The notes beneath the pieces were generated by a model. It was not told the DNA's origin and made no database searches. It saw only the letters and a list, made by a program, of their open reading frames with translations. Shown in pieces: positions 36,167 to 45,480 of a DNA stretch of 64,000 nucleotides (position 1 is the first letter of the stretch; each line of letters starts with the position of its first letter). A program made the translations under genes and the position numbers. This DNA comes from Reichenbachiella sp. 5M10 (GTDB taxonomy: Bacteria; Bacteroidota; Bacteroidia; Cytophagales; Cyclobacteriaceae): assembly GCF_002742335.1 (NCBI RefSeq), contig NZ_MDGR01000007.1:2174501-2238500 (forward strand), given 5' to 3'.

Positions 36167-36943
36167 TTATATCCCTCTGTTCAAAGATAACTCATCAGGA
36201 TTGACCACATGCTGTTTTGCCCCTGCAAATCTTTCTATGATATCGTCCGTAGTGAGTACAGATGCATAGCGGTTTTTCAAGCTATTGATCGTGCCTTGTT
36301 GGAGCTCTGGCGTCACAGTCGTACAGGCGTCCTCTACCATCGTGACGAGATATCCAAGATCACAAGCATCCCGAATGGTTGTCTCCACACACTCATTGGT
36401 ATACACTCCTGCCACAATGAGTTCGTTGACACGTAGATTTTGTAGAATATAATTAAGGTTGGTAGATGAGAAGACTCCACTAGCTGTTTTATTCACCACG
36501 ATCTCGTCACCTTGCGGAGCTACTTCAGGCAAAAATTCAGCTTCCTTGGAACCAGGAGCAGCGAGAAGCCCCAGCCTTTTGTGCCCATTGCTACGATCTC
36601 TCCCGTCTTGGGTCATGGCCTGTATACGAGTATGAATCACTTCTATCTTTTTGTTTCTAAACGTCTCGAGTAACCGCCGTACATTGGGGAGCACATGACC
36701 ATTGAGCGTATCAAAATAATACTCCTGTTGCTCTACAGGTATTCCTGAAGTCGCCACATCCTTGAACACCCCATAGCCACGTGCTGCATCCAGATACTGA
36801 ATATCAATAATGAGCAAAGCGACTTCTAAATGCTCCAAGTGCTCCTGTCTCTCAACCGAGCTATCATCAACGATCTCATGATAGTACTCCTTGAGTGGGT
36901 CTAAGGAATCTTCAGGTCGTAGGTCTCTGTGTATGTCTGTCAT
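36167..36943 (-). CDS. Isochorismatase-family cysteine hydrolase (amidase-like)
   Basis: 258 aa. The catalytic triad is visible: Asp in VALLIIDIQ (about residue 47), Lys in IVVNKTASGVF (about 150) and Cys in VYTNECVETT (about 185). The family includes nicotinamidases, isochorismatases, N-carbamoylsarcosine amidases and ureidoacrylate amidohydrolases. The next gene upstream is an N-carbamoyl-amino-acid-hydrolase-like M20 enzyme, which hints at an amide or ureide substrate, but this is inference. It heads a four-gene set with corA, FNT and YdeI. Confidence 0.88.
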   Translation of the reverse strand: MTDIHRDLRPEDSLDPLKEYYHEIVDDSSVERQEHLEHLEVALLIIDIQYLDAARGYGVFKDVATSGIPVEQQEYYFDTLNGHVLPNVRRLLETFRNKKIEVIHTRIQAMTQDGRDRSNGHKRLGLLAAPGSKEAEFLPEVAPQGDEIVVNKTASGVFSSTNLNYILQNLRVNELIVAGVYTNECVETTIRDACDLGYLVTMVEDACTTVTPELQQGTINSLKNRYASVLTTDDIIERFAGAKQHVVNPDELSLNRGI

Positions 36944-37061: not shown

Positions 37062-38306
37062 CTAGCAGAGTCCAGCAATTTTCACCAATGCATTGAGCGC
37101 TAGATTCGCACCACTTTCGAGATGATGCCAATCGGTCCATTCGTGTGGCGAGTGGCTGATGCCATTTTTGCTCGGCACGAAAATCATGGCGATGGGTGCA
37201 ATCTTGGCGACCATCTGCGCATCATGAGCTGCTCCACTCGGCATCACTTTGTAAGACATCTCTAGCTGCTGTGCTGCCTCTTCGAGAGACGACTGCATCT
37301 GATTGTCACATGCTACAGGATAGATCATGCTGGCTTCTGTAAAATCAAAACTCAACTGCCGCCGTCTCGCAATCGCCGAAAGCGCTTTGCGACAAGCGTC
37401 TTTGAGCTCGTTCATCACCTCTAGGCTCACGTCACGTGCATCGATACTAAAATCCACTTCCCCAGGCACCGTATTGGCCGAACCTGGATAAAGCGCTACG
37501 TTCCCTATAGTAATCCGGGACGCTTCCCCACCATTTTCATCGATAATCCGCGGTATCTCATGTGCAAAATCCGCCAAACCCATAAAGGCATCTTTGCGCA
37601 TCTCCATCGGGGTAGTCCCTGCATGATTGGCTGCACCAAGCAGACGTACCTGCCACTTGAACAGCCCCGTGATGTCTGAGACGATTCCTACGGAGACATT
37701 CTCTGCATCAAGCACGGGTCCTTGCTCGATATGGAGTTCAAGATAGTTTTTGATCTCCTTTTTGGGACGAGAAGCAGACAAGGCCTGGTACGGATCGACT
37801 CCCAATTGCTGGAGCACATCCGATAGCATAATACCATCCAGATCCTGAGACTCTTCTATGATCCTAGGGTTGAGTTGCCCTGCAAAAGCTCGCGAACCGA
37901 ACATACCGCCAAACCTCCCCTCTTCGTCACTAAATGCAATCACTTCTAATGGATAGGCTGTTTGGATACTCTGTTCTTTGATACACAGCAAACACTCCAG
38001 CCCTACCAGTACCCCTAGTGCTCCATCCAATGCACCTGCATTCGGTACAGTATCGATGTGCGAACCGATGACCACTGCGGGTTTATCTTGATTTGCTTCA
38101 TTTTCGTAGCGCCCAATGATATTGAGTGCTGCATCTCGACGTGTAGGGATGCCATACGCCTCTAGCTTCGCCTCCAACCAATCCCTCGCCAAAAGTTCGT
38201 CGGCATTGAAAGCCATGCGATAGATCCCTCCATCTTCCTTCTTTCCGATGGCTGCTAGCTCGTTGAAATTTGCCTTGAACCGCTCAAAATTGATTGTCAA
38301 TACCAT
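37062..38306 (-). CDS. M20 amidohydrolase (AllC / N-carbamoyl-L-amino-acid hydrolase type)
   Basis: 414 aa. It is a two-metal amidohydrolase. The metal ligands are in IGSHIDTVPNAGALDGALG (His and bridging Asp) and FSDEEGRFGGMFGSRAFAG (Glu pair), with ELHIEQGPVLD further on. The lid domain has LLGAANHAGTTPMEMRKDA. This is the allantoate amidohydrolase / beta-ureidopropionase / N-carbamoyl-L-amino-acid hydrolase group, which releases NH3 and CO2 from ureido compounds. It lies just beyond the terminator of the carbamoyltransferase operon. Confidence 0.88.
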   Translation of the reverse strand: MVLTINFERFKANFNELAAIGKKEDGGIYRMAFNADELLARDWLEAKLEAYGIPTRRDAALNIIGRYENEANQDKPAVVIGSHIDTVPNAGALDGALGVLVGLECLLCIKEQSIQTAYPLEVIAFSDEEGRFGGMFGSRAFAGQLNPRIIEESQDLDGIMLSDVLQQLGVDPYQALSASRPKKEIKNYLELHIEQGPVLDAENVSVGIVSDITGLFKWQVRLLGAANHAGTTPMEMRKDAFMGLADFAHEIPRIIDENGGEASRITIGNVALYPGSANTVPGEVDFSIDARDVSLEVMNELKDACRKALSAIARRRQLSFDFTEASMIYPVACDNQMQSSLEEAAQQLEMSYKVMPSGAAHDAQMVAKIAPIAMIFVPSKNGISHSPHEWTDWHHLESGANLALNALVKIAGLC

Positions 38307-38329
38307 AAGTCTATGTCTTTAAATCAAGA

Positions 38330-38357
38330 AACCCCTCCCAAATGAATGGAAGGAGTT
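38330..38357 (-). terminator. Terminator after the symporter-carbamoyltransferase-AsnB operon
   Basis: On the minus strand AACTCCTTCC pairs with GGGAGGGGTT over 10 bp including two G-U pairs (38348-38357 with 38330-38339), followed by TCTTGATTT. It separates the operon from the M20 hydrolase gene. Confidence 0.6.
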
Positions 38358-38390
38358 CTCTTATACACAAAAAATAAAATCTTTGCTCGT

Positions 38391-40373
38391 TTACAAATTC
38401 AACATCTTCCCATCGATGAACTGGTTTTGCAAAATTTGAAGTCCGAGGATATGATTGACCAAAGCGTCCTTCCGCACAAGCGAAACAGGGTCTTTGTCGT
38501 TTTGATACTCGGTAATGAACCGTTTGAGACGCCCTGTATCAAAGATCCCTGCATGACGCAAAGCATCTTCATTCAAGTATTCCTCGATCAACTCATTGAG
38601 CGCATTCTTTTTCTTTTCTTCGGTATGCGCAGGTGGTGACATGAAGGCAAATTTTTCTCGCTCATACAACACTGTCGGCAAAATATCCTTCATGGCTTCA
38701 CGCAGTACCCACTTCTCTGTATTTCCCTTGATGCGATAGTGTGGTGGTATCTCACGCGCCATCTCAGCCACATGATGATCTAAAAACGCCGGACGTGACT
38801 CCATAGAATTGGCCATATCTACCCTGTCACCTCCCCAGTTTAGAATCTGACATTCGAGCATGGTTTTGCTCCAAGTGTATTGTGCCTTGTCCAGCACATG
38901 ACGGTTGTTGAGCTGATTGGTATCAAAACTCTGTGCAATGGTCGCTACCGGATCATAATCCTTGAGCTCCTCAATCAAATCATTGTGCAAGAGCGGACGT
39001 GCAATCTCCAAGGTATTCATCCATGGCTGAATCCATGAAGGTGTAAATCCACAAATCTCTTCCATCACAGGGTGTGAAACATGCTCCTCGGAGAGTATCG
39101 CCCCTTTGAACAGCGAATTGGTTTTCTCCATCAGTTCGCGGTAGCTATCTACCTCGTCCTGCGTATGCCCTGACCCTTCGATGTTTTGATAGCCATACTT
39201 GAGCATGTCCCGCTTGAGCTGTGGGTATCCACCAAACAATTCATCAGACCCCTCGCCCGTCACGACCACACGGTAGCCACACTCGTTGACCTTTTTACTC
39301 ATCTGCCATTTGGCCACTCCTAGGGTATTGTAGAACGTACGTTCGGAGTGGTACGCCGTCTTGAGGTAATTCTCCCCGTATAGATCAGCCGCTGAGAGAT
39401 TGATCTGTTCCTGATCTGCTCCGACACGATCTGCCATTTCTTTGGCGATGTGTGCTTCGTCATAGTCTTTGTTGTCAAAACTAATCGTAAATGCCTGCAC
39501 AGGAGACTGCTGCATCGATGACGCCAAACCGAGCATCGAACAACTGTCTATCCCTCCGGACAAATAACACCCCACGGGCACATCTGCCTCCAACCTATGC
39601 TCTACTGCCTCGACGAGCTCTTCTTGTACACGCTGGATGTGGTACTCCGCTGACTTACCCATGTCACGATCTTGTTCTTCTGGGAAGTCCATATCCCAGT
39701 ATTTGTGATCTTTGACTTCTAAGTTACCTCCTTTGCGCTCAATGATCAGCATATGCCCCGGACGCAGCGCCTGGATATCTTTGTAAGCCGTAGTACCCGG
39801 CACCATGGTCTGCATCAATTGATGCAATACTGCTTCACTGTCAAAGGCACGTGGCACCTCTGGGTGCACCATCAGTGATTTGATCTCCGAACCCCAAAAC
39901 ACATTGTTGTTTTGAATGTGATAGAAAAGTGGCTTGACCCCAAAACGATCACGCACCAAGACAAGGCGCTCTTCGTCCTCATCGTACATCGCAATGGCAA
40001 ACTCACCGCGCAAGTGACTTACAAAATCTAATCCATATTTCTTGTACAGCGGCAAAGCTATCTCACTGTCACTCTTGGTCGTGAAGTCAAAACCTTCGAG
40101 TCTCAAGTTGGTACGAATACGTTTGTAGTCGTAGAACTCCCCATTGACGGTCAAGACGTGCTTGTTTTCGTTGGCAAACAAAGGCTGTCGTCCTGTCTCC
40201 AAATCAATGATGGACAAGCGTGCGTGCCCCATTGCCAAGCCCTTTGGCTCATCAAGGTGATAGCCATAGCCATCTGGACCTCTGTGATAGAGCATTTGGG
40301 TCATTTTTTCTAAATTCTGCTGGGCAGATGATTCTAAAGCACCGGCTTTCCAATATCCTGTTATTCCACACAT
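38391..40373 (-). CDS. asnB: AsnB-type glutamine-dependent amidotransferase (asparagine synthase)
   Basis: 660 aa from the ATG at 40373, which gives the required N-terminal nucleophile Cys2 (MCGITGYW); an upstream in-frame start would bury it. The N-domain is a class II glutaminase (RGPDGYGYH, VNGEFYDYK). The synthetase domain has the PP-loop YLSGGIDSCS (about residue 270) and GEGSDELFGGYPQ. It normally makes asparagine from aspartate, glutamine and ATP. It is longer than E. coli AsnB (554 aa) and follows a carbamoyltransferase-like gene by 1 bp, so its real acceptor may differ. Confidence 0.9.
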   Translation of the reverse strand: MCGITGYWKAGALESSAQQNLEKMTQMLYHRGPDGYGYHLDEPKGLAMGHARLSIIDLETGRQPLFANENKHVLTVNGEFYDYKRIRTNLRLEGFDFTTKSDSEIALPLYKKYGLDFVSHLRGEFAIAMYDEDEERLVLVRDRFGVKPLFYHIQNNNVFWGSEIKSLMVHPEVPRAFDSEAVLHQLMQTMVPGTTAYKDIQALRPGHMLIIERKGGNLEVKDHKYWDMDFPEEQDRDMGKSAEYHIQRVQEELVEAVEHRLEADVPVGCYLSGGIDSCSMLGLASSMQQSPVQAFTISFDNKDYDEAHIAKEMADRVGADQEQINLSAADLYGENYLKTAYHSERTFYNTLGVAKWQMSKKVNECGYRVVVTGEGSDELFGGYPQLKRDMLKYGYQNIEGSGHTQDEVDSYRELMEKTNSLFKGAILSEEHVSHPVMEEICGFTPSWIQPWMNTLEIARPLLHNDLIEELKDYDPVATIAQSFDTNQLNNRHVLDKAQYTWSKTMLECQILNWGGDRVDMANSMESRPAFLDHHVAEMAREIPPHYRIKGNTEKWVLREAMKDILPTVLYEREKFAFMSPPAHTEEKKKNALNELIEEYLNEDALRHAGIFDTGRLKRFITEYQNDKDPVSLVRKDALVNHILGLQILQNQFIDGKMLNL

Positions 40374-40374
40374 A

Positions 40375-41463
40375 TTACGCTGTAGGTATTTTGTCTTTTG
40401 GGAGTTTATTAAATCGATTGAGTACGGAGATAAACAAGGCCTGCCTGATAAAGACCGCTCCGTGTGCCTGAGTAAAGTATAGGTTGTGATGGGTATCGTC
40501 CAATATCGGGTCCAACTCATCGAGCCGTGCCAAAGGATGAAGTACCACCGCATCTTCTTTCAATTTCGTGTTTTCGTCTAGTTTGAATCGACTATCCAGT
40601 GACTTGTAGCTATCCCCCAAAAAGGCAATAGAATTCATATAGATCACATCGAGATCCTCGACTACTTCGTTGATATCATTGGTAATGTGAATTTTGATCC
40701 CCGAGGCTTCTGCTTTGACATTCAGTTCTTCGCCGAGAGGATCAGCCATCTCTGAGATGATAGAGATCTGCTTGATATCGTCTTTGAAAAGGAGCGACAT
40801 GCGCAAAAAGCTATTGACTGCACGCATACTCCCTGGCGTACCTAGAATCCCCAGGTGGATTTTCTCTTCCGGTTTCAGAACTCCCTTGAGTTGAGGTTTC
40901 CACTTGAGGATCGCAAACCAATCGGCCAGCGACTGTGTGGGATGCTCTCCCGAACCATTGCCAGCATTGATGAGTGGGACACGTAGGTTAGGCAAAATCT
41001 CTTCGATCGCTGAGGTCTCGGTATGTCGCATGACCACACAATCCCCATATGCATTGAACATCTCTCCGATATCGAGCAATGACTCGCCCTTGGCCTGACC
41101 TGTACTCTTGCCATCCGAGATACTGATGATCTTGCCATCCAATCTCAATACTGCACTCTCAAAAGACAGCCTCGTCCGTGTACTTGCTTCGAAAAAGGCT
41201 GTCACGATAATTTTCCCATCAAGGGGGTGAGATTTTGCAATTTCCGTGCTCTCAAGTAGTGCAGCAAACTTGCAGATTTCCAAGACCAGTTCTTTGTCAA
41301 ACTGATCTACAGATAGGATACTCTGTCCAGTGAGCCGCTTCAATACCTCTATATTGATCGGGTCTTCTTGGAGTAATTTTTCGGGATCGGGATTGAGACC
41401 GTCCGACGCTAAGGGGTTTTTGTCCAGTGCATTTTTTCCTGGATCAAACTTATCACTTACCAT
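40375..41463 (-). CDS. Aspartate-carbamoyltransferase-like enzyme with altered amino-acid site
   Basis: 362 aa, with a 45-residue N-extension. The carbamoyl-phosphate site is intact: FFEASTRTRLSFE (STRTR 94-98), QAKGE (Lys125), MRH (145-147) and HPTQ (174-177). It looks catalytic-chain-like (PyrB), and Arg214 in SMRAVNS aligns with E. coli Arg167. However, where PyrB has YMTRVQ with Arg229 and Gln231 for aspartate, this has YMNSIA (275-280), and HPLPR is HPLAR. So the amino acceptor may not be aspartate. It overlaps a 40-aa gene upstream and abuts asnB downstream. Confidence 0.85.
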   Translation of the reverse strand: MVSDKFDPGKNALDKNPLASDGLNPDPEKLLQEDPINIEVLKRLTGQSILSVDQFDKELVLEICKFAALLESTEIAKSHPLDGKIIVTAFFEASTRTRLSFESAVLRLDGKIISISDGKSTGQAKGESLLDIGEMFNAYGDCVVMRHTETSAIEEILPNLRVPLINAGNGSGEHPTQSLADWFAILKWKPQLKGVLKPEEKIHLGILGTPGSMRAVNSFLRMSLLFKDDIKQISIISEMADPLGEELNVKAEASGIKIHITNDINEVVEDLDVIYMNSIAFLGDSYKSLDSRFKLDENTKLKEDAVVLHPLARLDELDPILDDTHHNLYFTQAHGAVFIRQALFISVLNRFNKLPKDKIPTA

Positions 41464-41579
41464 AGTTGTTTGGTTTTAATGTCTCTAATCAATAGCCATA
41501 CTAAGGCTATCACTGTCACGGTGATTCCTAGCAAAGAAGTCCCAATCAATACACTTAAAAATAGTTCAGAAAAGTTCAT
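41457..41579 (-). CDS. 40-aa single-pass membrane peptide next to the symporter
   Basis: Small gene, ATG at 41579 and TAA at 41457-41459. The protein starts MNFSELFLSVLIGTSLLG, continues through a single hydrophobic helix (about residues 6-31), and ends in a basic/polar tail IRDIKTKQLW. It fits exactly between the symporter (stop 9 bp before) and the carbamoyltransferase (ATG overlaps its last codon and stop by 7 bp). That tight fit in a coupled operon argues for real translation. Small membrane subunits beside SSS symporters are known; a link to that class is inferred. Confidence 0.7.
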   Translation of the reverse strand: MNFSELFLSVLIGTSLLGITVTVIALVWLLIRDIKTKQLW

Positions 41580-41589
41580 GGTATAGGCT

Positions 41590-43023
41590 TTATTCTTGAG
41601 ATTTAGATTCGTTGAGTGTGTTCCATTCGAAATCGTCTGGAAACAAATAGGTACAGACCAATACCGTCACCATAGACACAGCTGCTCCAATCAATGAGGC
41701 GGTGTACCAGCCCAATTGAAAATAAGCCACTAGGCCGCTACTACTACCCAGTATCATTCCGAGCATCGCTCCTTTGGCGCTGGCTTTGCGCCAAAATAGA
41801 CCTGTCACGATGGGCCAAATCGTACTCCCCACCATAGGCCCTGCAAAAAACAACACCGTAGCAAGCGTACCAATGCGTGGCATACAAAACGCCCATGCCA
41901 GAACCCCCAAGCCAATAATGATTCCTGCCGAAACTTTTCTCAGCAGCTTTTCACCAGCTTTCGGATTAATCATCTTGCGGTAAATATCTTCGGTAATAAG
42001 ATCAGAGGTAGCCGCCAATAAACTGTCAATACTGGATGCGAGCGAACAAAAGAATACAGCAAATACAATCACCGCACCTGCTTGCCCCAGCACATGAGAC
42101 GCCACCAACGGCCCCACCATATCCGGACTAGTGATATTGACACCCAGCGAACCACTCGTCAAAGCGATAAATCCTGCCGCAATCGGCACAGGAAACCAAA
42201 ACAGACCCGATAACAAATAAGCCTTTTTTCCAATTTTTTCGCGCATAGCAAAGGCTCGACTCCACCACACGTTGCTGTGAAACACTTCCCCCAGCCCAAA
42301 AAGCAGGTTGTTAAATACGGACATGATCGCTGCAGGCATGAGTGCATTCAATAGCATGGGCTTTTCATCCAATACATTGGTATATATGTGACCAAAATCA
42401 ACCTGTGTCAATACACCAACACCCACGACCACTATACCAATCAAAATAATCAGAGATTGAATAAAATCCGTCCCGATCACAGCATACAAACCACCAAACA
42501 AGGTATAAACAACGCATACACCAAGGATCACTGTCATTCCCAGTTCGTACGGAATACCTGCGATGGCATTCATCAGGATCCCTCCCGCCATGCCCATACT
42601 CACCAGCCATGTAAAACCATAAAAGATACTGATAACTAGAAAGACATACCAGGTAAACTTGCCATATCGTAGACGGATAAAATCCCCACTCGTGTAGCCC
42701 GTCGGCATCAGTGCTTTGATTCGATTCGCTAAAGGCGCAAAAAGAAATAACCCAAAGGAAGCAGTGGAATAGGCAATCATACCCCATATCCCAAGCTGCA
42801 GCGCAAACTGTGGCGCGAGCATCGTGGTATTGGATGTGACCCATGTCGCCATGGCCGTGGCAGCACCAAAAGCCAACCCCACATTGCGTCCAGCGAGCAT
42901 GAACCCATCCATGTTTTTGGCCTTCTTGCCCCAGTAGACACCTAAAAATATCCACAGTGCACTGAGTACGGCCAGTAGTATCCATCCCGTCTCAGGCGAA
43001 ATAATAAAAGATTGATGATTCAT
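41590..43023 (-). CDS. Sodium:solute symporter (SSS family)
   Basis: 477 aa, about 13 membrane segments. SSS features are WILLAVLSALWIFLGVYWGKKAKNMDGFMLAGRNVGLAFGAAT (N-terminal helices), YTSGDFIRLRYG, IGTDFIQSLIIL and FFCSLASSIDSLLAATSDLITEDIY (sodium-site region). It takes up an organic solute with Na+. The substrate is unknown. The operon partners (carbamoyltransferase-like and AsnB-like enzymes) suggest an amino acid, ureide or related compound. It overlaps the FN3-like gene by 4 bp (ATGA). Confidence 0.92.
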   Translation of the reverse strand: MNHQSFIISPETGWILLAVLSALWIFLGVYWGKKAKNMDGFMLAGRNVGLAFGAATAMATWVTSNTTMLAPQFALQLGIWGMIAYSTASFGLFLFAPLANRIKALMPTGYTSGDFIRLRYGKFTWYVFLVISIFYGFTWLVSMGMAGGILMNAIAGIPYELGMTVILGVCVVYTLFGGLYAVIGTDFIQSLIILIGIVVVGVGVLTQVDFGHIYTNVLDEKPMLLNALMPAAIMSVFNNLLFGLGEVFHSNVWWSRAFAMREKIGKKAYLLSGLFWFPVPIAAGFIALTSGSLGVNITSPDMVGPLVASHVLGQAGAVIVFAVFFCSLASSIDSLLAATSDLITEDIYRKMINPKAGEKLLRKVSAGIIIGLGVLAWAFCMPRIGTLATVLFFAGPMVGSTIWPIVTGLFWRKASAKGAMLGMILGSSSGLVAYFQLGWYTASLIGAAVSMVTVLVCTYLFPDDFEWNTLNESKSQE

Positions 43024-43442
43024 GACGTAGAGGGTGTTGAGCGTGAACCTTTGATGATAACAACTGACGTCAGGCTAAATACAAGCAAGCCCAAGCCTGA
43101 CAAAGTCAACGCTAGATTTAGCGACTGATGTTGCACTTGTACTTGCAACACATTCGACCACTCGCCCTCATTGGCTTTGACTCGGTAGTAATACTGCCCG
43201 TCCAAGAGACCAGAAACAAAACTCGCCTTGTCAGGTCCACGGTAGATGACTTTGGTTTCCTCAAACAGAGAGTCTTCGGCCTGTTCCAGCCAAAAGAACT
43301 CTGCCTCACCTGACCAATCGAGTTGTATGTACCCACTCGGTGCTACCTGTAGGGATTCTCCTACGAACTCTACTTCTTGCGCTTGGACCACACTCATCGC
43401 CCAACAATAGATTCCTAGGGCAAGGGATAATTTTGAGACCAT
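43020..43442 (-). CDS. Secreted FN3-like single-pass membrane protein
   Basis: 140 aa. The signal peptide (1-22) ends VVQAQE. It is followed by one fibronectin-III-like domain (about 25-105; APSGYIQLDWSGEAEFFWLEQAED..., LLDGQYYYRVKANEGEWSNVLQVQV). One membrane helix is near the C-terminus (about 110-132) with a short basic/Ser tail. It probably faces the periplasm. It overlaps its upstream gene by 1 bp (TAATG) and the symporter by 4 bp, which suggests an accessory role for the transporter; this is inference. Confidence 0.75.
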   Translation of the reverse strand: MVSKLSLALGIYCWAMSVVQAQEVEFVGESLQVAPSGYIQLDWSGEAEFFWLEQAEDSLFEETKVIYRGPDKASFVSGLLDGQYYYRVKANEGEWSNVLQVQVQHQSLNLALTLSGLGLLVFSLTSVVIIKGSRSTPSTS

Positions 43443-43663
43443 TATTTTTCAATTTCTTTGTCCTCTTCTTTTTTTACTTCGGGTGTTTCCTCAGGAGGTT
43501 CATCCACTATGTTGCCAAACTCATCTACATAGGCAATCATTTCGTTGAGCGTACCCCCTCCATTTTCTCTTTCCTCTAGTTTCAGCCTTTTCTCTTCCTT
43601 CTTCTTTCTTTTTTTCTCCGCTTTCTGTCTTTTGACAAATGCATTAAAGTTCTTCTTTCCCAT
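43442..43663 (-). CDS. Small Lys/Glu-rich protein with DEFGNI box
   Basis: 73 aa. It has a basic helix (residues 1-33: FNAFVKRQKAEKKRKKKEEKR) followed by LNEMIAYVDEFGNIVDEPPEET. The same layout occurs in the 70-aa protein at 45268-45480 and the N-part of the cold-shock fusion at 32890-33336. It begins the operon with the FN3-like protein, symporter, 40-aa peptide, carbamoyltransferase-like enzyme and AsnB. Its function is unknown; the basic run suggests nucleic-acid or ribosome binding. Confidence 0.85.
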   Translation of the reverse strand: MGKKNFNAFVKRQKAEKKRKKKEEKRLKLEERENGGGTLNEMIAYVDEFGNIVDEPPEETPEVKKEEDKEIEK

Positions 43664-45021: not shown

Positions 45022-45216
45022 TTAACCGATCACTTTTACGTTTACGGCATTCATTCCTTTTCTACCTCTTTCAACGTCGAATTCGACCTTGTCATTTTCT
45101 CTTACTTCGTCAACTAGACCTGAAGTGTGAACAAAAATATCATCACCACCGTCATCTGGTTTAATGAATCCAAATCCTTTGGAATCATTGAAAAATTTAA
45201 TTACTCCTTGTTGCAT
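45022..45216 (-). CDS. Cold-shock protein (CspA family)
   Basis: 64 aa, a complete cold-shock domain. The RNA-binding motifs are SKGFGFI (residues 12-18) and DIFVHTS (26-32), and the family start is [15 protein letters not shown]. It binds single-stranded RNA and melts structure. It is encoded 51 bp after a small Lys-rich protein on the same strand, probably co-transcribed, although a near-consensus -7 box (TGAATTTG) just before it might give an extra promoter. Confidence 0.95.
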
Positions 45217-45267: not shown

Positions 45268-45480
45268 TCATGCCCTACCCTCTACGCTTTTCTGAACCAT
45301 AGGTTCGGGAGCAGTGGAGGTAATATTCCCAAATTCATCAACATAGGCGATCATTTCTGACAAATCACCTCCTTTGCTACTTTCCCGTCTCTCTAGCTTT
45401 CGTTCCTCCTTATCCTTCTTTTTCATTCGTTTCTTCTTCTCTTTTTGGAACTTGATAAAGCTGTTTTGAGACCTACTCAT
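45268..45480 (-). CDS. Small Lys/Glu-rich protein with DEFGNI box, upstream of csp
   Basis: 70 aa. A basic helix (SQNSFIKFQKEKKKRMKKKDK) and LSEMIAYVDEFGNITSTAPEP align closely with the N-terminal part of the cold-shock fusion at 32890-33336 and with the 73-aa protein at 43442-43663. Being next to a free cold-shock protein, and fused to one elsewhere in the window, it probably works together with cold-shock proteins. The function is not known. Confidence 0.9.
   Translation of the reverse strand: MSRSQNSFIKFQKEKKKRMKKKDKEERKLERRESSKGGDLSEMIAYVDEFGNITSTAPEPMVQKSVEGRA

Follow-up and report, generated by a model that had tools for sequence, protein, structure and literature searches.

A carbamoyltransferase-centered gene cluster of Reichenbachiella and its relatives that probably serves an uncharged N-carbamoyl amino-acid amide osmolyte

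Introduction

In the genome of Reichenbachiella sp. 5M10 (Bacteroidota), a gene for a carbamoyltransferase (CTase) lies between those for a sodium:solute symporter and an AsnB-like amidotransferase, and the locus raises the question of what molecule such a set of proteins would make, move or consume. The stretch analyzed here, called the window, comprises 64,000 nucleotides (contig NZ_MDGR01000007.1, positions 2,174,501 to 2,238,500) of a genome of 4.6 Mb. A preliminary description had listed six closely packed genes of the window, and had proposed that they make or use an amino acid in carbamoylated or amidated form, with the CTase acting on an acceptor other than aspartate. All six open reading frames (ORFs) are present, on the minus strand, and both proposals gain support from the sequence comparisons described here. 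We suggest that the cluster probably serves to synthesize, take up and recycle a salt-protecting molecule, an N-carbamoyl amino-acid amide without charge, most likely that of glutamine. The argument turns on two points: (i) whether the CTase is the aspartate enzyme of the genome; and (ii) whether its neighbors indicate a product and a role.

Results

The carbamoyltransferase is not the PyrB of the genome

The CTase (40375..41463, minus strand) has the OTCace_N and OTCace domains of Pfam, and its STRTR and HPTQ motifs and two-domain fold place it in the transcarbamoylase superfamily. It nevertheless scores below the PyrB equivalog cut-offs (TIGR00670, 179.8 versus 236.95; PRK00856, 171.2 versus 263), whereas another protein of the genome, at L015:6020-6943, exceeds both (319.8 and 405.6) and is its canonical PyrB. 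According to the preliminary description, the lack of any other pyrB in the genome, together with aspartate activity of this enzyme, would make it the ordinary PyrB; a separate pyrB exists. There is also an N-acetylornithine-type carbamoyltransferase, ArgF', encoded among arginine-synthesis-like genes (L016:6891-7847). Exactly three OTCace proteins, two besides the CTase, are found in each of 14 other named genomes that carry it.

In a maximum-likelihood tree, 18 of the new CTases form one clade with support of 100/100 and a stem of 3.33 changes per site. The clade stands apart from the PyrB-like and ArgF-like proteins of its own host genomes; it adjoins the PyrB proteins of E. coli, Photobacterium and Ilyobacter. 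Some long reference branches of this tree are unstable, but there is no doubt that the new CTases belong together.

The residues reported earlier for the CTase (STRTR, Lys125 and HPTQ retained; YMNSIA and HPLAR in place of the PyrB sequences YMTRVQ and HPLPR) are as stated. The carbamoyl-phosphate residues are invariant across 24 sequences from four phyla, as is R214, the equivalent of Arg167 in aspartate transcarbamoylase (ATCase). In E. coli ATCase, Arg229 and Gln231 bind the side-chain carboxylate of aspartate. Nearly all of the 24 proteins have Ser278 and Ala280 at these positions, so that the aspartate site as such is not present; the position of Thr228 is an invariant N277, I279 is nearly invariant, and A312 of HPLAR is invariant. 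Because these changes are conserved over 24 sequences of four phyla, they are a fixed property of the family. An alpha-amino acid whose side chain carries no charge would probably suit such a site.

The AlphaFold model has the ATCase fold, with a mean predicted local distance difference test (pLDDT) score of 83.7, and its best PDB matches are structures of E. coli ATCase (TM-score by target 0.83-0.88). This fold, together with an AsnB-like neighbor that passes the asparagine synthase cut-off, is what one would expect if a duplicate PyrB and an ordinary asparagine synthase simply lay side by side and shared no pathway. That explanation is barely credible in view of the long, fully supported branch, the altered aspartate site, the linkage maintained in four phyla, and the canonical PyrB elsewhere in this genome and the two further OTCace proteins in each of the 14 others. 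As for the CTase by itself, the model scores, the changed site, the separate PyrB and the clade lead us to reject a PyrB duplicate.

An AsnB-like enzyme and two hydrolases accompany the carbamoyltransferase

The AsnB-like enzyme (38391..40373, minus strand) starts at 40373 (MCGI...) rather than at the longer ORF start of 40553. It combines an N-terminal cysteine amidotransferase domain with a synthetase domain, contains the SGGIDS and GEGSDE motifs, and exceeds the asparagine synthase cut-off (TIGR01536, 417.4 versus 267.1 bits). It belongs to a clade of its own, which includes neither the two paralogues that the genome also encodes nor AsnO of the N-acetylglutaminylglutamine amide (NAGGN) system. 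Because those two AsnB paralogues exist, the enzyme need not supply asparagine; we propose that it amidates the alpha-carboxyl of a carbamoylated amino acid.

Two genes beyond AsnB, absent from the preliminary description, belong to the same set. The first (37062..38306, minus strand) encodes an M20 hydrolase above the cut-offs for N-carbamoyl-L-amino-acid amidohydrolases (TIGR01879, 390.8 versus 204; NF006771, 513.7 versus 399). It also scores near the allantoate amidohydrolase models, and it reaches 371 bits against the model for ErtE, an N-carbamyl-L-glutamate amidohydrolase, which is below the cut-off of 520. Its N278 and R291 are conserved; these are the carboxylate-binding Asn and Arg of L-carbamoylases. 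The second (36167..36943, minus strand) encodes a cysteine amidase of the isochorismatase family (Pfam Isochorismatase) with conserved D47, K152 and C185, whose nearest NCBIfam model, biuret amidohydrolase, is matched below threshold.

The CTase, the AsnB-like enzyme, the N-carbamoyl hydrolase and the cysteine amidase fit together, and it is because of this fit that we propose an N-carbamoyl amino-acid amide as the product class. In the proposed pathway, the CTase would use carbamoyl phosphate to carbamoylate L-glutamine at its alpha-amine, acting as an L-glutamine alpha-N-carbamoyltransferase, and the AsnB-like enzyme would use ATP and glutamine nitrogen to amidate the alpha-carboxyl, giving an uncharged solute, carbamoylglutamine amide (CGA). 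The symporter, with two small partner proteins described below, would take up or recapture the solute. Once salt stress is over, the isochorismatase-type amidase would remove the amide, after which the M20 hydrolase would remove the carbamoyl group and return glutamine. A presumed EctR-type MarR regulator adjoins the cluster in many relatives.

The amino acid could be a different one. Glutamine is not fixed by the sequences: the loss of Arg229 and Gln231 says only that the side chain probably bears no carboxylate, and M20 carbamoylases are generally known to accept many L-amino acids. A compatible solute built in the same way on asparagine, glycine, a beta-amino acid or a dipeptide is thus conceivable, and we regard it as unlikely, if worth keeping in view. 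We know of no N-carbamoyl amide solute of another amino acid, and ErtE, which acts on the N-carbamoyl derivative of glutamate, is among the strongest relatives of the M20 hydrolase with a defined substrate, even though the match is below cut-off. By comparison, Ectothiorhodospira marismortui is known to have CGA as an osmolyte (PMC1224877).

The cluster is conserved in four phyla

A scan of named genomes yielded 80 loci in Bacteroidota, Verrucomicrobiota, Planctomycetota and Myxococcota, with CTases 55-99% identical to that of the window; Reichenbachiella agariperforans (L019) has the same cluster and a CTase of 99% identity. Neighbors were counted over the loci whose contig has room on the side concerned. 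By this measure the symporter gene is directly upstream of the CTase gene in 73 of 76 loci, AsnB is downstream in every one of 69, and P140, a putative accessory protein of the symporter, is encoded upstream of the symporter in 56 of 70. The pair of hydrolase genes is present, and always adjacent, in 28 of 43 loci; it is missing from the other 15, the two genes being gained or lost together.

These counts bear on a further explanation, in which a ureido compound is imported and degraded as a source or store of nitrogen, the CTase working in reverse to yield carbamoyl phosphate as in the fermentation of oxamate, agmatine or allantoin. An importer, two hydrolases of amide or ureido bonds and the proximity of the M20 protein to allantoate amidohydrolases would all suit such a role. 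It is made rather improbable by the constant presence of the ATP-spending AsnB-like enzyme where the hydrolases are dispensable, by the several osmolyte genes nearby, and by the neighbors themselves, since no carbamate kinase was recognized among the representative sequences of those that recur.

The CTase clade is patchily distributed: it occurs in 1 of 395 genomes of an evenly drawn Bacteroidota sample, and in Verrucomicrobiota, Planctomycetota and Myxococcota it reaches at most 2% of the genomes sampled per phylum, which suggests that it spread as a module. Of 35 plasmid matches, the 10 listed are all PyrB-like and less than 40% identical. No gammaproteobacterial locus is among the 80 kept by the scan, which required exact peptide motifs.

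In 12 loci (L024, L038, L046, L049, L054, L056, L058, L062, L070, L072, L083 and L088) the two hydrolase genes adjoin the cluster and run in the opposite direction, an arrangement which suggests that breakdown is controlled separately. Two Bacteroidota loci have a protein of about 965 amino acids between CTase and AsnB (L025:11113-14010 and L068:11100-14012); it has no Pfam match and is in part a very divergent M20 relative, with about 22-34% identity. It may replace the hydrolase pair that these loci lack.

Osmolyte genes lie near the cluster

A homologous MarR-type regulator gene lies near the cluster in 20 loci; of the 53 loci with at least 7.7 kb of upstream sequence, 17 have it within that distance. 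In Reichenbachiella faecimaris and another genome of the genus, this regulator is encoded upstream of the small gene P73, as the first larger gene there. The R. faecimaris regulator has a single match at E<=1e-8 in the genome of strain 5M10, namely ectR, which heads a complete ectRABCD operon (L126:2668-6371; C7, about 4.186-4.190 Mb) whose EctA, EctB, EctC and EctD all exceed their NCBIfam cut-offs. This EctR is 27-42% identical to 18 of the regulators found with the cluster (up to 117 bits), and the best solved MarR structure matches the R. faecimaris protein at 37 bits. The cluster regulators thus appear to be of the EctR type.

Six planctomycete loci have genes for a glycine/sarcosine and a sarcosine/dimethylglycine methyltransferase beside the cluster, which together constitute de novo glycine betaine synthesis. 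The representative of the first exceeds its NCBIfam cut-off, and that of the second misses its cut-off, yet scores much higher on that model than on any other. Five of the six loci are from related Pirellulales; the sixth, L078, is a metagenome-assembled genome of the Phycisphaerales with the pair on the other strand. BCCT transporters are encoded near the cluster in nine loci, and 13 of 15 cluster-carrying genomes have no ectoine synthase above cut-off. Most named isolates with the cluster, apart from Chitinophaga and Sphingobacterium, belong to taxa known to be marine.

These neighbors also bear on the idea that the carbamoylated, amidated amino acid is a small secondary metabolite or signal and not an osmolyte. 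Many natural-product clusters do contain AsnB-like enzymes, as the NCBIfam relatives show. We consider that idea very unlikely, given the EctR-type regulators, betaine genes and BCCT transporters nearby, and a conserved core with an importer-type symporter and no dedicated exporter.

Organization of the gene unit

In full, the cluster extends along the minus strand from 43442 to 36167 and includes the two hydrolase genes. The unit as first delimited consisted of real genes and was incomplete at one end, where the hydrolase genes travel along with it; at the other end, P73 (43442..43663) is a neighbor and not part of the core. Four of the five junctions given for it are confirmed: overlaps of 1 bp for P73/P140, 4 bp for P140/symporter and 7 bp for P40/CTase, and a gap of 1 bp for CTase/AsnB. 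The fifth, a gap between the symporter gene and P40, is 10 bp and not 9.

The symporter (41590..43023; Pfam SSF, 104.5 bits) is proposed to import the osmolyte. P140 (43020..43442) has a signal peptide and a C-terminal transmembrane helix and is likely a symporter accessory protein; its AlphaFold model (pLDDT 92) consists of a helix, strands and a transmembrane helix. The beta-sandwich is likely an FN3-like domain, as read from sequence and model; it has no Pfam match. P40 (41457..41579) is a 40-residue peptide with a single transmembrane segment and a terminal Trp, and is probably a small symporter subunit. A peptide of about this length and character occupies the same position between symporter and CTase in nearly all 80 loci, in four phyla; P40 is real, and not a chance ORF.

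Between AsnB and the M20 gene there is a gap of 84 bp, which contains a terminator-like hairpin (38329..38358, minus strand) with a 12-pair stem and a T-rich tail, a match to the consensus only. The hairpin may set the hydrolase genes apart in transcription. AsnB and the M20 gene overlap by 4 bp in L014, a more distant relative, where 1 bp separates the M20 and isochorismatase genes. Because of this tight packing we count the two hydrolase genes as members of the cluster, even if in the window their coupling to it is partly lost. The coupling between making and breaking the solute thus seems to vary by species.

P73, a small Lys-rich protein, was not found outside Reichenbachiella-like loci. 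The window has a 70-residue Lys-rich paralogue at 45268-45480 (58% identity over 62 residues), adjoining a cold-shock-like gene at 45022-45216; both proteins carry the motif EMIAYVDEFGNI and form a small family. Downstream of the cluster, genes for CorA and a formate/nitrite transporter were considered and placed outside the unit, as the flanks differ between relatives. Rfam and tRNA scans of the window gave no matches.

Discussion

It is the two hydrolases and the osmotic context, both missed by the preliminary description, that narrow its general proposal down to a particular product. The gene context makes a role as compatible solute likely. For CGA as the product, where we infer both the reactions and the glutamine substrate, the chances are even or slightly better, and as a whole a CGA osmolyte cluster is the explanation that we favor with modest confidence.

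Several observations weigh against this explanation. Residues 279-288 of the CTase model, the substrate loop in the acceptor region, have pLDDT values below 50, and the model therefore cannot name the acceptor. In the window the cluster has no EctR-type gene next to it, and the complete ectRABCD operon implies that ectoine and hydroxyectoine are also present, so that the proposed solute would not be the only one. Chitinophaga japonensis and the Sphingobacterium species are not known to be marine. Finally, Rhodopirellula baltica carries the cluster (L076), and CGA is absent from its published solutes, the main ones being sucrose, glutamate, trehalose and mannosylglucosylglycerate (PMC3694870); the main text of a paper on its salt transcriptome does not mention carbamoyl, asparagine or symporter.

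If the proposal is correct, genes would be assigned to an osmolyte that has none in the literature searched (in the open-licence literature, we found no paper that names CGA biosynthesis genes), a transcarbamoylase would have a new acceptor, and a nitrogen-rich solute, with four nitrogens per molecule, would be present in marine Bacteroidota, Verrucomicrobia, Planctomycetes and myxobacteria. Automatic annotation would score the genes as asparagine synthase and aspartate-carbamoyltransferase-like, and genome surveys that address salt adaptation or marine organic nitrogen would miss the pathway.

The individual components have known counterparts. The CTase shares with PyrB the ATCase fold, the carbamoyl-phosphate site and R167, and its clade attaches beside PyrB; it differs in the replacement of Arg229/Gln231 by Ser/Ala and of HPLPR by HPLAR, in its long stem, and in not being the PyrB of its genome. 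The M20 hydrolase resembles the hydantoinase/carbamoylase family (ErtE; the N-carbamoyl-L-amino acid hydrolase of PDB 3n5f) in sequence, in N278/R291 and in other active-site residues. It differs in its link, which is to a carbamoyltransferase that would make the substrate and not to a hydantoinase. An EctR-type MarR regulator and an SSS-type importer beside biosynthesis genes are also features of certain ectoine clusters (PMC13342039), whose biosynthetic enzymes and product are unrelated.

As a whole, the cluster is closest in logic to the NAGGN system (AsnO, Ngg, M42 peptidase and the MarR protein PA3458; L122 is an example from Azospirillum), whose operon encodes an asparagine-synthase homologue, an acylating enzyme that acts on glutamine, a hydrolase and a divergent MarR repressor (PMC8070244). 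It is not itself a NAGGN system: the AsnB-like enzyme scores 290.8 on TIGR03104, for which the cut-off is 570.1, and belongs to another clade, and neither Ngg synthetase nor the M42 peptidase is among the window genes or the recurrent neighbors, as judged from unannotated representatives. A carbamoyltransferase takes the place of Ngg synthetase, and the M20 and isochorismatase-type hydrolases that of the M42 peptidase. The parallel is nevertheless close, in that an N-blocked glutamine compound, as proposed here, would be amidated at its carboxyl by an AsnB-family enzyme to give an uncharged osmolyte, with a hydrolase and a MarR regulator encoded nearby.

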